Shown here: piece after piece, positions 2,704-28,500 of the stretch
Layout: each line of letters starts with the position of its first letter
Position numbering within the stretch: the first letter of the stretch is position 1
Assembly: GCA_000306725.1 (NCBI GenBank)
Contig: CP003083.1
Location: 62,001-126,000 of the forward strand
Origin: Methanolobus psychrophilus R15
GTDB lineage: Archaea > Halobacteriota > Methanosarcinia > Methanosarcinales > Methanosarcinaceae
Reading direction: 5' to 3'
Length of the DNA: 64,000 nucleotides
Notes under the pieces: generated by a model
What the model was told of the DNA's origin: nothing
Database searches by the model: none
The model's input: only the letters and a program-made list of their open reading frames with translations
Translations under genes and position numbers: made by a program

Positions 2704-4650
2704 ATGAAGGTGAGTGGCTTGAAGATCAGGATATTGTGGTATGGCTTGATAGGGTTGTTATTCATTATTGGATTCACACAGACGTGCGCTGCTTTAACGT
2801 ACTCCGGTGGCGGCGAGTGGGAATACTCAACCGAGATAAACATAAAAGAGATTTCCGGACAGGACCTTACTAATTATCAGGTCCCTGTTGTCCTGAACAG
2901 CTCCAATTTTGATTTCTCCAGAGCTCAGGATGCTGGTCAGGACATACGCTTCACCTCAGGTGACAGGCAACTGCAGCACTGGCTGGAGGAATGGAACTTA
3001 CAATCAAAAAAGGCGACAATATGGGTCCGGATACCTTACGTGACTTCCGGTGGAACCATCAGGATCACTATGCACTACGGAAATCCGCTTGCAACTGATA
3101 TAAGCTCCGGCGCTTCCACCTTTGAGTTCTTTGATGACTTCAGCGGCAATAATCTTGCTTTTGGTAACTGGGAACAGTTTACCACAGGCGGGGGCCAGCT
3201 CAGCGTCACTTCGGAAGCTGCCAGGCTTATAGTTCCAAACTATCATCCCGCAGATATTTCCAGGATCAAGTCCGCCAAGGATTTCCCTATCAATTCGATG
3301 TTTGTGGTAAAAAGAAAGAAGGTCACTACAGGAACCGACTCTCGTGGCCCGGTAATAGTCCAGGGATTTGTGGATTCCCGCAACGAGGACAGGAGTCACA
3401 TGCTTGTCAGCACCGAACTCGAAAGGGAGACAAAGGTCAACTGGATACTGAAGAACAGCACTGCTGATGTCAGTCGCACAACAGCTGACCTGACAGACCT
3501 TAATGTCGCCGAAGATACATGGTACACCACAGCAGTTGCATGGTACCTTGAAGATGAATTAGGAAAAGTATCATTCTTTAAGAATGGTATAAGGGACAGT
3601 AGAATGGACTTTACCACCACCGAGAGAACCAACAACCTGAACCTTATAAAAGTAAAGGCTTACCTTTCAGCAAGAACCTATCCGGATGCTTCAGATAACA
3701 CCGGATATGCAGCTTTTGATTACGCCTATGTGCGCAAATTCGTTTCAGGAGAGCCAACTGTGACCGTCGGTAGAATTACCGGAGCTGCTGCACAGGAAAG
3801 CACAAATGATACGCCGGAACCTGCTAAAATCAATGTTACTGTGCCTGGTGGCGTGATAAATGCAGTCCGCATCTTTGATGCATCAGCATATGATGCTTCC
3901 GTACTGGAAGAACTCAATGCCAGCGGCTTTAACATGATTCTCGTAAGGACAACTCCGGACAACATATGGAGCCTTGAGAGATTTGTAAAGGCAGCTCACA
4001 AAAACGGCATCCAGGTCTATGCAATGATAATCAGGGATGGAGGAAGCTCCGAGAACATGATAGATACGGCACAGCAGATTGCCGACTATAACAACAAGTC
4101 CCTTGCACGCTTTGATGGAATAAACATTGCACTCAACCCATGCAGTGAAGATCCCAATGAAGCATGCGAAGATAACCTGGCCTTGCTTGAAAGTCTGCGT
4201 GCAAGCTCCGGAAGCTTGCCGATAGCTGTTGATGTGCCTGTTTCTTACGACAGGTCTGCATTGCAGGAAGTTTCGGATGAGGTTGAATTCTTCATTCTCC
4301 TTACCTACGATGAACAGGGAGAGCATTTAAACAACACTGCAACAATCATTGACTCCATCTCAGCAAAGATGGGAGAGATTCGGGGAGCGGGAGAAAATGC
4401 CCTGATAGGTATTGCTGTTGGCGAGGAATATATGACAGACACGCAAGTACAGGGCCTTATTGAAGGATTGCAGGACTATTATTCACAGGATACGGCTTTC
4501 ATGGGTACTGCAATAGTGGTCTACGAAGACTACCGGGAATACTCCCAGATAACACCATCAACAGAAGAAAACAGGGCAATACCGGCATTCACAGTTCTGA
4601 TTGCAATCAGTATGCTGCTAGGTGCGGTATATATCCTAAAGAAAAAATAA
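2704..4650 (+). CDS. DUF2341 surface protein with TIM-barrel-like C-terminal domain
   Basis: A 648-residue exported protein. Residues 1-30 form a signal peptide (basic start, hydrophobic LIGLLFIIGF, then CAA). Residues about 65-150 match DUF2341 (YQVPVVLNSSNFDF, QDIRFT, ATIWVRIPYV, IRITMHYGNP), a domain common in cell-surface proteins and followed, as usual, by a jelly-roll/LamG-like stretch to about 355. Residues about 380-620 form a different domain: VRIFDASAYD, GFNMILVRTT, HKNGIQVYAMI, FDGINIALNP, FFILLTYDE and ALIGIAVGE look like the strands of a TIM-barrel glycoside-hydrolase-like fold. The tail IPAFTVLIAISMLLGAVYIL plus lysines is a membrane anchor resembling archaeal CTERM sorting signals. 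Substrate unknown; carbohydrate binding or hydrolysis at the cell surface is inference. Confidence 0.75.
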   Translation: MKVSGLKIRILWYGLIGLLFIIGFTQTCAALTYSGGGEWEYSTEINIKEISGQDLTNYQVPVVLNSSNFDFSRAQDAGQDIRFTSGDRQLQHWLEEWNLQSKKATIWVRIPYVTSGGTIRITMHYGNPLATDISSGASTFEFFDDFSGNNLAFGNWEQFTTGGGQLSVTSEAARLIVPNYHPADISRIKSAKDFPINSMFVVKRKKVTTGTDSRGPVIVQGFVDSRNEDRSHMLVSTELERETKVNWILKNSTADVSRTTADLTDLNVAEDTWYTTAVAWYLEDELGKVSFFKNGIRDSRMDFTTTERTNNLNLIKVKAYLSARTYPDASDNTGYAAFDYAYVRKFVSGEPTVTVGRITGAAAQESTNDTPEPAKINVTVPGGVINAVRIFDASAYDASVLEELNASGFNMILVRTTPDNIWSLERFVKAAHKNGIQVYAMIIRDGGSSENMIDTAQQIADYNNKSLARFDGINIALNPCSEDPNEACEDNLALLESLRASSGSLPIAVDVPVSYDRSALQEVSDEVEFFILLTYDEQGEHLNNTATIIDSISAKMGEIRGAGENALIGIAVGEEYMTDTQVQGLIEGLQDYYSQDTAFMGTAIVVYEDYREYSQITPSTEENRAIPAFTVLIAISMLLGAVYILKKK

Positions 4651-21066: not shown

Positions 21067-21699
21067 ATGAGCGATAAAGGGCCTTTTTTGGCAGGCGAGG
21101 TCGGACGCCAGTTTATACATATGCTTACAGGCACTGTTTTTCTTATTGCGATCTATTTATCAGGAAGCTATGCAGCCTTATTGTTTGCAGTCCTGTTGAC
21201 TGTAACGGTGGCTGCCTCAATATTGATTAAAAAGTTCAATCTTTCTCAAAGAACATCTGGCGTGTTCCGCAGACTTGGAAGGCCAGGCATACAAACTGTA
21301 AAGCTTCAGGGAACCATATTGTTGCTTTCGGGGGTTCTTGTCACGTTGCTTCTATTCCCAAGGAACATTGTTTACGCTTCAGTAGCAGTAGTCGCATTAG
21401 GAGACTCGGTTGCAACCATCGTGGGTGTTTTGATCGGAAAACATAAGTTGCCATACTCCGAAAGTAAGACTGTGGAAGGAACGCTGAGCGGGCTGGCTGC
21501 TGCTTTTGGAGGAGCTCTCCTGTTCGTAACACCCTTTCAGGCTTTTATAGGTGCTGCCGGGGGCATGCTTATTGAAAGCACGATCAGTCTCCAGACAGTA
21601 AAGAAAGCCAGCCTGAAAGGGATGGTAAAGTTCTTTCTTAACGATAACTTTATGATCCCTGTTCTTTCAGCTTTCCTGATGTTACTTGCCAGCAGATAG
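21067..21699 (+). CDS. Diacylglycerol/polyprenol kinase family membrane protein
   Basis: A 210-residue membrane protein with about six or seven hydrophobic helices. It has the CTP-binding signature of the SEC59/DGK1/VTE5 family: VALGDSVATIVGVLIGKHKL followed by SKTVEGTLSG. It probably phosphorylates a polyprenol or isoprenoid-type lipid alcohol at the membrane using CTP, which would fit archaeal lipid or dolichol metabolism. Substrate is not shown by sequence. The AUG at 21067 is preceded by a GGAGGGGAG stretch about 17 bases away, so the spacing is long. Confidence 0.82.
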   Translation: MSDKGPFLAGEVGRQFIHMLTGTVFLIAIYLSGSYAALLFAVLLTVTVAASILIKKFNLSQRTSGVFRRLGRPGIQTVKLQGTILLLSGVLVTLLLFPRNIVYASVAVVALGDSVATIVGVLIGKHKLPYSESKTVEGTLSGLAAAFGGALLFVTPFQAFIGAAGGMLIESTISLQTVKKASLKGMVKFFLNDNFMIPVLSAFLMLLASR

Positions 21700-21994: not shown

Positions 21995-24343
21995 ATGCAG
22001 AGGAAACGATTATATAATTCCGCCCAAGAGGATTACAGGGGACTTTTGCTGGAGAATGGGGATATGGGGAATATTGTTGATCTTGAAAACGGGGAAACTC
22101 TGCAAGACAAAGTGGAGGAGCAGAAAGGTGCTGTTACCGGGAGAAAGCTGTTCGGTACTTTCGAAGGGGTGTTCGTTCCAACTCTTCTGACCATCCTGGG
22201 CGTGATAATGTACCTCAGGGAAGGATGGGTCGTGGGTAATGCAGGTCTGCTGGGTGCCTGGCTGATAATACTGATAGCTTTTAGCATCACTCTTTCCACG
22301 GGCCTTTCCCTTTCCTCGGTGACCACCAATATAAGGATAGGGTCAGGAGGTGCTTTCTCTGTGATCTCCCAGTCACTCGGCCTTGAGGTCGGAGGAAGTA
22401 TAGGAATACCACTTTATCTTTCCCAGACACTTGCTGTGGCAATGTACATATTCGGCTTCCGTGCCGGATGGAGATGGATCTTTCCGGAGCATCCGGCCAT
22501 CCTCGTAGATCTTGCAATATTCTCCGTGCTTTTCATTGTGGCCTATATCAGCGCATCCCTGAGCTTCAAGATCCAGTACATAGTTCTTGTGGTCGTAGCT
22601 TCGTCATTCGTATCCATAATATGGGCCGCGTACCTGGGTTCCATGCAGGAGCCTATCACGTGGTGGGGCTCATTTGAGGGCTCCCCTGAGACAGGCTTTT
22701 CAGGGATTGGTTTCTGGGGAGTCTTTGCTGTCTTTTTCCCGGCGGCCACCGGTATAATGGCAGGGGCGAACATTTTCCCGGCGGCCACCGGTATAATGGC
22801 AGGTGCGAACATGTCAGGGGAATTAAAGAATCCCCGCCGTAGCATTCCCCTTGGAACCATTTCTGCTATTTGCGTCAGCCTTGTGGTCTACCTGTTGCTT
22901 GCCCTGTGGCTGGCAGCTTCAGCAAGTAATGACGAACTTCTGGGCAACTATACTATCATGGTGGAAAAAGCTGCCTGGGGGCAACTGGTTGTTGCAGGCC
23001 TGCTGGGAGCCACATTCTCATCGGCCCTGTCATCTTTTGTAGGTGCACCACGGATCCTCCAGTCCCTCGCGAACAGTAAGATATTGCCGGCAAGCGGATG
23101 GTTCGCAAAAAGATCAGGGTCAGGGGAGCCACGCAATGCAATAATATTCACCGGCCTGATAATCTTCCTGGCATTGATGCTGCGCAGTCTGAATGCAATT
23201 GCTCCTCTCATCACCCTGTTCTTTCTGATGACCTATGCAATGATCAATATAGTCGTGTTCATCGAACAGAACCTGCAGCTTGTAAGTTTCAGGCCCCTCT
23301 TCAGAATCCCCAAGGCGGTTTCCTTTATTGGTGCCATTGGGAGCGTATTTGTGATGTTCATCGTCAGTCCCGTGTTCAGTTTACTGGCAGTCGTAGTTGT
23401 TATATCGATACATGCATACCTGTTGAAAAAGCATCTCAAGGCACCTTTTGGAGACGTGCGCAGCGGTCTTTTTGTTGCCATCGCAGAATGGGCTGCAAAA
23501 CAAACTTATAAGATTGCTCCCTCCAGCGAAAGGACCTGGAAAGCTAACCTGCTGGTACCTGTGGAGGATCCGAATGTGCTTACAGGAGCATTCAAATTCC
23601 TCAGGGATATTGCCTACCCTAAGGGTTCGATCAAATTACTCGGCCTGTCGGGGAAAGTGGATGAGACTAAATTCTTCTCACGTCTGACAGACCTGACAGA
23701 ATCTTTCAGGGATAATGGGGTTTTCTCTTCCTGGACCATTGTCGATACTGCGGCATTCGAGAAAAATCTCATTGTGGGTATGGAAGCATTGGGCGGCTCT
23801 TTTTTCAGGCCCAGAGTACTGTTCATTAACCTGAGCAGCTTTGACGGTCAGTACGAAAAGGTAAGGAATGTCATCCGTAAGGCCGCAGAGCGCAGGATTG
23901 GTATCTTACTGCTCGCTATCCATAATGATGCTGCTTTTGGGAGAGAGGAATCCATAAACCTGTGGATAAACGATCGAAGTCCTGACTGGGACATAAGCAT
24001 GGATCTGGGAAATATGGATCTTTCCATCCTTATATCCTACAAGCTTAAAAGGAACTGGAAAGCATCTCTGAAAATGATAAGCTGCGTGCGGGATCAGCGT
24101 AATGCCCCAAAGGCTAAGGAATATCTGGAGAACCTTGCTGAGATAGCAAGAATCCCAAATGTTATTACTGAAGTGATGAGTGGCGATATGGAATCAAATC
24201 TTTCCAGGGTTTCGCAAGCCTCAATAAATATATTCAGTATGGAGCATGAAGCCGATTTTGAGTTCATTCGCCGGGCTGTGGAACAGACAGGTTCTTCATG
24301 TTTATTTGCACTTGACTCGGGAGAAGAGAATGCGTTTGCATGA
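21995..24343 (+). CDS. Cation-chloride cotransporter (SLC12-like, APC superfamily)
   Basis: A 782-residue transporter of the NKCC/KCC type. About twelve hydrophobic segments span residues 50-490, with the helix-1 motif KLFGTFEGVFVPTLLTILGV and ILGVIMYLREGWVVGNAG. A soluble C-terminal domain (about 510-780) has strand-helix repeats typical of the SLC12 tail. It would move Cl- with Na+ and/or K+, or a similar ion set. In the sixth helix, the conserved FPAATGIMAGAN motif occurs twice in tandem (residues 248-260 and 261-273) before SGELKNP, an in-frame 39-bp duplication. This adds 13 residues to a core helix and may disturb or inactivate transport. The AUG at 21995 has no clear ribosome binding site; that at 22064 (GGAGAATGGGG upstream) is an alternative. 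Confidence 0.88.
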   Translation: MQRKRLYNSAQEDYRGLLLENGDMGNIVDLENGETLQDKVEEQKGAVTGRKLFGTFEGVFVPTLLTILGVIMYLREGWVVGNAGLLGAWLIILIAFSITLSTGLSLSSVTTNIRIGSGGAFSVISQSLGLEVGGSIGIPLYLSQTLAVAMYIFGFRAGWRWIFPEHPAILVDLAIFSVLFIVAYISASLSFKIQYIVLVVVASSFVSIIWAAYLGSMQEPITWWGSFEGSPETGFSGIGFWGVFAVFFPAATGIMAGANIFPAATGIMAGANMSGELKNPRRSIPLGTISAICVSLVVYLLLALWLAASASNDELLGNYTIMVEKAAWGQLVVAGLLGATFSSALSSFVGAPRILQSLANSKILPASGWFAKRSGSGEPRNAIIFTGLIIFLALMLRSLNAIAPLITLFFLMTYAMINIVVFIEQNLQLVSFRPLFRIPKAVSFIGAIGSVFVMFIVSPVFSLLAVVVVISIHAYLLKKHLKAPFGDVRSGLFVAIAEWAAKQTYKIAPSSERTWKANLLVPVEDPNVLTGAFKFLRDIAYPKGSIKLLGLSGKVDETKFFSRLTDLTESFRDNGVFSSWTIVDTAAFEKNLIVGMEALGGSFFRPRVLFINLSSFDGQYEKVRNVIRKAAERRIGILLLAIHNDAAFGREESINLWINDRSPDWDISMDLGNMDLSILISYKLKRNWKASLKMISCVRDQRNAPKAKEYLENLAEIARIPNVITEVMSGDMESNLSRVSQASINIFSMEHEADFEFIRRAVEQTGSSCLFALDSGEENAFA
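22736..22813. repeat. 39-bp perfect-period tandem duplication
   Basis: Two abutting 39-bp copies (22736-22774 and 22775-22813) differ at only two positions (a GGG/GGT third base and the last base). Each encodes the SLC12 signature FPAATGIMAGAN. The near identity suggests a recent event or an assembly artefact. Confidence 0.9.
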
Positions 24344-25586: not shown

Positions 25587-28500
25587 TTAAGCTTTACTTT
25601 CCATATCCTGTTCTATCAGTGCAATCTCCTCCCTCATTTCCTGCAGTAATATCCAAACACTTCCTTCATCGAGTTCCACTGCTTCTTCCAATCTTGCTGC
25701 CATTTCGGCCAGGATAGTGCAGCCCATATTAAGAGCACTGCCCTTCATCTTATGGGCGCGCTTCTTTACATCCTGCATGTCTTTCTGCGAATGTGCCGTC
25801 GTTATATCTTCAAGGCTTTGGGCAAAAGTGGTCATTGCTATTAAAGTCAGCGTATTGAACAATTCCAGATTACCATCAATGTTAGCCAGCAACTGTTCCC
25901 TGTTAAAACGTTCAGCACTGCTGCTCCCGATGTCAGCGGACCTGGAAGTGCATTCAAATTCAGGCAACCATCTTTGTAGAACACCCCGGATGGTTTCAGC
26001 TATAACAGGCTTGGTGATATAGTCATCCATGCCTGAATCAAGGCAACGCTCCCTTTCACCTTTCACCGTGCCTGCAGTCAGGGCAATGATAGGTATGTGA
26101 CTGCCATTTCTGCAAGTTTCAACTTCGATTTCCCGGATTGCACTGGCCGCCTCATACCCGCTTCTTCCGGGCATCTGGATATCCATAAATACGAGATCTG
26201 GCTTAGTATCCTTAAATGCCCGGACCGCTTCGTTGCCGTCCACGGCTTTAATTATCTCTGCATCCGGCAAACATATCGACAGAATAGCAGATGCAAGTGT
26301 CATATTTACCTCGTTATCCTCAGCGACCATAATTGTGTACCTGCGATGAAGTACATACGGCTCGCCCTGTTTGGCAGAATCCCCCGCGTAGGCAAGGTCA
26401 CCTTTCGGAGAATTTGCATGTGCAATTGTTTCGAAAAGTTGCGACACTTTGACAGGCTTGACAAAGATGGAACGGATACCCAGCTCTTTGTAACCTTCAC
26501 AGATAGATGAACTGTCCGAGGAGTTATGCAGAATAATGAAGGCTTGCCCGCTGGTAGTGAAACCGGGCATCTCATGCATGATGCGTACAAATTCGAGACC
26601 ATCCATAGAAGGCATATTGTGATCAACGACAACAAGATCATAATCGGTATGTTTGCCGACCATACCCAACGCTTCTGCGCCATCAACTGCAACGTCAGCC
26701 ATGATGCCTCTGGAAACCAGCATATTCTGCAAGATAGAGCGGCTGGAAGCATTATCATCCACGACCAGAACCTTATGGATATGTGAAAGGTCGTAGTTTA
26801 CAATTGTATCATCCTTTTCTGTCGGGAACATAGCAGTGAAATGGAAAATGCTCCCTTCCCCACATTCACTTCCAAGATCAATCCGGGAACCCATTTTCTC
26901 AAGCAGCATATTGGAGATGGTCAGCCCAAGCCCGGTCCCACCATATTTTCGGGTAATGGAACCGTCCGCCTGTGAGAATGAACTGAATATCCGGGACTGT
27001 TTCTCCTTTGCAATACCTATCCCCGTATCCCTCACCGAAAATGTGAACTCCATATTGTTAGTGTCCGGGACCGGAGAGGCTTCAACCTTCAGCTCGACCT
27101 CTCCTTCTTCAGTAAATTTCACAGCATTCCCCAAAAGGTTCACAAGCACCTGTTTCAGTCGTAACCTATCGGCAACAATATAGCGAGGCAAATCTGCAGG
27201 TATGTTCAGCAGCAGTTCGAGCCCTTTCTCATGCGCCCTGTATTTCACGATATCCGCTATCTGCTCACATAGTTCGATCAGATCGGTCTTCTCAGGATCG
27301 AGCTCCAGTTTGCCGGCCTCTATCTTGGACAGGTCCAGCACATCGTTTATCAGGTCAAGCAGTGAGATCGCTGATGAGTAGACGGCCTGCATATATTGCA
27401 TTTGCGATTCTGTAAGGTCTGTCTGCATAAGCAGGTCCGAGAATCCGATCACCCCGTTAAGAGGCGTGCGCATCTCATGGCTCATCATAGTAAGGAACTG
27501 GCTCTTGGCACTGTTGGCCATCTCCGCATGAGCAGCCATAGAATTGGCATGCTCCGTAGTCTCTTTGAGGAGGCGGTTCTTTTCAAGCAGCTCATCCTCC
27601 GTATTCTTCCTCTCAGTGATATTGTTAAGAATGACCATTTGGCCTCTTGTATTCCCATGCTTATCGTGGAGTGGCAAAAATGTCACATGGAGCCAAAAGA
27701 CACAGCCTTCAATTTTACTTTGGATCTCAATGATGCTTTTTTCGGTTGCATAAGCTCCTTTACTCAGAAGTTCACACCACGGATCCGCTAGTTCCGAGAC
27801 ATGTTTCCCTATGTCATTGGCATTCATTTGCATATATTCCGTGGCCGAGTGATTAATGTCCACTATTCTTCGTTCTTTATCCAGAACGATGACACTGTCA
27901 GGGATGTTCTCAAAGAGCAAGCTGCGGGCCAGAGGAGCCAGATTGAACAACTTGTAGCGTGTCAATCCTACAAAAACGACAAGACTGCTCAATGTCATGG
28001 CGAAAGGGCCAGGATCGACACCCCAAGGACTCATTCCTGCCAGGAAAAGCAGCAAAGTCATAAATGGGATCATGGACCCCACCATTACGATGATGACCTG
28101 TTTGCGGAAGGCTGGTGCAGTTCCCAGTAGCATGCTGAAAAGCAGACTGAGTCCAAGAATAATGCAAAGGATGCTATAGGACTGCTGTACCCAGTACCAG
28201 ATTCCAGGCTCATAGGTAAGTACCGGAAAAAGACCTTTGTTCGTCACATAAAAACCTTTATGGAATATATCATGAAACTCAGTTGTGAAAACCAGAAGAA
28301 TTGTTGTCAAGGGAATAATAAGGAAAACAGCTGTCAAATATGCTGACATCCAATGCTTCTTACCTGTGTAATTCATGGCAAAGAACAGAAAAAAGAAAGG
28401 TATCATAGAAATACCAATATATTCGATCTTGTAAAATATCAAAACCGTGTGCACTGTAGTTGAGGATATCTCTAACGCATAAAAGAGTGAGTAAATAGCA

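Follow-up and report, generated by a model that had tools for sequence, protein, structure and literature searches.

A 39-bp in-frame tandem duplication in the TM6 coding region of a cation-chloride cotransporter gene from Methanolobus psychrophilus R15

A prokaryotic cation-chloride cotransporter (CCC) gene in the genome sequence of Methanolobus psychrophilus R15 carries a tandem duplication of 39 bp, which adds 13 residues (FPAATGIMAGANI) in frame to transmembrane helix 6 (TM6). The array lies at 22734–22812 of the window, the whole 64-kb stretch of DNA that was analysed. We favour, with moderate confidence, the reading that the duplication is real, arose by a slippage-type event and leaves transport impaired or abolished, the gene being in other respects an ordinary prokaryotic CCC gene. 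Whether or not this reading is right, only one mutation in one genome is involved, and it amounts to a curious allele and not to a new system or a new kind of transporter.

The array was detected by Tandem Repeats Finder with a period of 39, 2.0 copies, a match of 97% and a score of 151, compared with a score of 49 for the runner-up array within the window. At an offset of 39, the segments 22734–22773 and 22773–22812 were identical at 39 of 40 bases, and the sole mismatch was G at 22765 against T at 22804. Copy 1 occupies 22734–22772 and copy 2 occupies 22773–22811, both on the forward strand, with the match running one base further, to 22812. The homology at the junction beyond the 39-bp unit was only 1 bp, the shared T at 22773. 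In the 3.07-Mb genome, a 31-base probe taken from the repeat unit had exactly two occurrences, each in this array, and the search found the unit nowhere else in the genome. The array is thus present in the given sequence far beyond chance. The result was in agreement with the original prediction of a nearly identical 39-bp tandem duplication that keeps the frame, as the reading frame at 21995–24343 comprises 782 codons with no stop inside. The span proposed there (22736–22813) follows the codons, and its ends were placed one to two bases too far right.

The gene (21995–24343, forward strand) was assigned from its reading frame, Pfam and phmmer to the SLC12/CCC-like proteins of the MaCCC type, with a product of 782 aa; translation may in fact begin at an in-frame ATG further downstream (MGNIVDLENG). 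The product matched the Pfam families AA_permease, CCC_C_1st_pro and CCC_C_2nd_pro. The AA_permease-type domain (PF00324) had an E value of 7e-47, and both prokaryotic CCC C-terminal halves were present (PF21555, E = 1.6e-45; PF21554, E = 4.9e-54), as in MaCCC. Furthermore, the transmembrane part matched the human KCC, NKCC and NCC proteins in phmmer, and the C-terminal domain aligned over residues 498–782 with 3G40 (E = 6e-100), the C-terminal domain structure of MaCCC from Methanosarcina acetivorans (Warmuth et al. 2009, as cited in PMC4301019). The model of the window protein superposed on 3G40 with a TM-score of 0.95, an rmsd of 1.6 and 52% identity. These Pfam and phmmer matches bore out the SLC12-type assignment made earlier. 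Judged by its sequence, the gene is a clear member of the family and a genuine prokaryotic CCC by descent, and coupled cation/chloride transport is its predicted activity.

The genome containing the window is assembled as one contig of 3,072,769 bases (99.97% complete), and the cotransporter gene is single-copy in it. Its named relatives place the genome within or beside Methanolobus. At position 26,651 lies a PAS/HisKA/receiver kinase gene, consistent with Mpsy_0031 in the literature on R15 (PMC5378194), but the HSP20 positions observed did not agree with Mpsy_0075, the Hsp20 gene in that paper. Two weaker matches in the same genome (L002 and L003) were considered as second copies and rejected as different transporters, of the APC type with USP-like C-terminal halves. 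They belong to the same superfamily, with 26–29% identity in the transmembrane part, and were not counted as further copies because both lack FFPAATGIMAGAN.

The coding region of TM6, comprising TM6a, an unwound break and TM6b, was placed at 22712–22813 on the forward strand from the AlphaFold models, the alignments of relatives and the literature on TM6 of NKCC1, and it is 13 residues longer than usual. The repeated peptide is FPAATGIMAGAN followed by I or M, at residues 248–260 and 261–273. In an alignment of 67 sequences, the spacing from FW to SG[E/D]L was 25 residues in all 67 relatives, compared with 38 residues here. The relatives possess a single PAATG-type break within this fixed spacing, whereas the window protein has two PAATG motifs in TM6; the regularity was observed in the present analysis and is not a published criterion. 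Compared with MaCCC, the window protein likewise has 13 extra residues in TM6. This comparison was made with one-copy Methanosarcinaceae relatives, all without the insert, because the membrane part is absent from 3G40.

TM6 of human NKCC1 has its break here, with Pro496 and Thr499 coordinating K+ and Gly500 acting as the hinge (PMC7035313). By alignment, these three positions are predicted to fall in the doubled PAATG. Human NKCC1/SLC12A2 (PMC7035313; PDB 7smp, 9c0g and 6pzt) shares the fold, the domain order and the TM6 motif with the window protein. However, it has no TM6 insertion, the structure-based identity is about 22%, and the archaeal protein need not carry the same ions. The original prediction had placed the duplication in helix 6, in the ion-binding region and the most conserved segment of the family. 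The placement and the ion-binding role were supported by the NKCC1 literature and the alignments. As to conservation, FFPAATGIMAGAN and TGIMAGANMSGEL ranked in the top 1% of 13-residue windows of the 67-sequence alignment, with TM1 about as conserved as FFPAATGIMAGAN.

The distribution of the second copy was studied among relatives. A first comparison set of 60 related genomes yielded full-length orthologues in the genus and family with 65–97% identity, the closest one-copy orthologues having 95–97%. One copy, reading FAVFFPAATGIMAGANMSGEL, was found in all 14 orthologues from the genus and family. In addition, a wider scan of archaea and bacteria gave one copy, with small substitutions, at 80 of 80 loci. 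The two sets overlap by a few loci (L033 and L005, judged by length, are one contig), so that about 90 relatives were covered overall. Among these, the duplication is private to this genome, which answers the question of orthologues raised in the original prediction. One other genome of the genus was observed to hold two full-length cotransporter genes side by side (L013 and L030, G015:C8:4428-9672).

The same privacy would be expected of a sequencing or assembly error, by which a single copy in the strain would have become two in the deposited contig. Only one assembly contains the two-copy form, the search for a second genome of the species found none, and an insertion inside a segment of such high conservation is by itself a reason for suspicion. 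On the other hand, the copies differ. The codon at the mismatch is GGG in copy 1 and GGT or GGA in all listed relatives (GGT in the two closest), so that copy 1 carries a derived synonymous substitution, the G at 22765, while copy 2 retains the ancestral T at 22804. If the assembly had duplicated one sequence, two identical copies would be expected, and the derived base therefore makes such a duplicate less likely, although as an argument it is weak. Moreover, common read lengths exceed the 39 bp of the repeat. Near-perfect tandem duplications of period 30 or more were also surveyed in the window plus about 0.39 Mb of sampled stretches (about 0.45 Mb in total), and one other was found, in an IS transposase, indicating that the assembly is not littered with them. 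We consider an error, which had been suggested earlier as one explanation, rather unlikely.

The other duplication in the survey measured 201 bp and was located in a transposase-like gene (L114:4243-4626; G000:C1:134243-134626), the frame of which was divided into two parts; it appears to be a broken insertion sequence. Also seen was a 15/30/45-bp repeat array, imperfect and of the low-complexity-linker type (L120:6682-6979; G000:C1:566682-566979).

In the explanation that we prefer, the 39-bp stretch would have been duplicated head to tail through a replication or repair error of the slippage or microhomology type, in the lineage of this strain and after its split from the nearest sequenced relative, with the frame kept. 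The duplication is accordingly taken to be probably present in the organism as well as in the assembly. A hairpin in the duplicated stretch was examined as the cause, and its single-strand fold was no stronger than in shuffles. The full-length protein could still be made, and its TM6 would contain two ion-binding breaks (PAATG) and 13 additional residues, or about 3.6 helix turns. Transport would probably be impaired or abolished, given the lengthening of a segment that is otherwise of fixed length. The points in favour of this explanation were the 1-bp junction homology, the absence of the unit from the rest of the genome, the privacy of the second copy, the derived base in copy 1, the fixed spacing, the doubled K+ site motif, the disturbance in the AlphaFold model and the gene remnants in other genomes of the genus described below. 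A literature search for in-frame duplications within helices of SLC12 proteins, and for duplicated helices in T4 lysozyme, returned no match in the library consulted.

Structure prediction for the two-copy protein and for a one-copy relative, along the lines proposed in the original prediction, localised the disturbance to the insert and did not distinguish a working from a dead protein. The AlphaFold model of the window protein kept the fold (mean pLDDT 85.3, pTM 0.77), with TM6a shortened to residues 240–247, residues 250–260 below a pLDDT of 50, and a helix at 262–272 passing through the second copy. For a one-copy relative with 97% identity, the model (mean pLDDT 84.7) had TM6a at 220–231, a break, and TM6b at 235–238. 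NKCC1 and NCC were the best PDB matches of both models. The top query-normalised TM-scores to NKCC1 were 0.74–0.75 for the two-copy model compared with 0.79–0.81 for the one-copy model, a gap that comes partly from the longer query. Against NKCC1 and NCC, the two-copy model reached up to 0.75 when normalised by the query and 0.76–0.81 when normalised by the target, for transmembrane-only entries.

Alternatively, the insertion might be tolerated, with one copy forming the normal TM6 break and the other pushed out, and the transporter working, perhaps with altered kinetics. Copy 1 could be displaced outward, or copy 2 could lie just ahead of SGELKNP, where TM6b ends on the cytoplasmic side, as a loop or a helix extension. 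Since both copies consist of the same residues, either can supply the native site. AlphaFold left the remaining fold intact, with nearly the same mean pLDDT and the same top PDB matches as for the one-copy relative, the gene has no stops, and it has been under purifying selection. The sole difference between the copies is also synonymous. Against this, the segment is identical in length in all relatives, archaeal and bacterial, and the NKCC1 TM-scores are slightly lower, partly through length. Moreover, the looped-out copy in the model has very low confidence and follows the placement of the alignment gap, which is arbitrary between identical copies. We hold a tolerated insertion only tentatively, as the stronger of the two main rivals to impairment. 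The altered function raised in the original prediction received no positive support.

The evidence from selection bears on both readings. Compared with the two nearest relatives (97% and 95% identity), the branch leading to the window had 10 nonsynonymous and 27 synonymous changes. The branch-wide dN/dS was about 0.12, similar to that of the sister branch, and relaxed selection was not seen on the window's branch (Fisher p = 1 against the sister). If the whole branch had been neutral, about 85 nonsynonymous changes would be expected; since 10 were observed, any unconstrained phase could span no more than about the final tenth of the branch. As purifying selection is averaged over the branch, a protein-breaking event, if there was one, was recent. 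A pseudogene was rejected on the same counts and on the open frame, although a very recent loss is compatible with them.

Between the copies, about 0.9 synonymous differences would be expected if the event were as old as the split, and one was observed. Both the low branch-wide dN/dS and this synonymous difference, which fits a longer constrained life better, were counted against impairment. A crude likelihood ratio of about 6–7 in favour of an older duplication that functions, as opposed to a recent one that is dead, depends on just one substitution and on a molecular clock. It was given limited weight against the fixed segment length in all relatives.

Two further possibilities were considered. 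Tandem repeats of about 39 bp can delete precisely, which restores a one-copy gene. The repeat might thus act as a reversible switch, lost and regained by slippage, with the transporter toggled on and off in the population. The two-copy form was found in no other genome, there was no sign of regain, and the array has probably persisted, given the one-base divergence between its copies. The data are accounted for by a simple mutant allele, and a switch appears extremely unlikely. It is also very unlikely, if somewhat less so, that the protein is a working cotransporter with two tandem TM6 ion-binding breaks, either or both of which are used, and with gating or ion stoichiometry unlike that of known CCCs. 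If so, TM6 would be less constrained in length than the family alignment suggests.

For the impairment that we favour, the dispensability of the gene in the genus is relevant. The cotransporter gene was full-length in 12 of 27 genomes of the genus, its own included. Two further Methanolobus genomes (G006 and G024) retained, between the same conserved neighbours, only decayed C-terminal remnants with stops, at about 4917–5687 of L133 and at 3216–3422 of L134, respectively. Remnants at the same locus in two genomes indicate that the genus tolerates loss of the gene. A loss-of-function allele is therefore plausible here, and the strain would tolerate an impaired transporter because the gene is dispensable. 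If the protein does not work, the allele would capture an early stage of gene loss, the gene having already become a relic in other species of the genus. If it is made and works, it would be a natural test of insertion tolerance at the ion site in the discontinuous helix of a LeuT fold. In G024, the upstream membrane-protein gene, a homologue of the gene at 21067–21699 of the window, was also reduced to a fragment.
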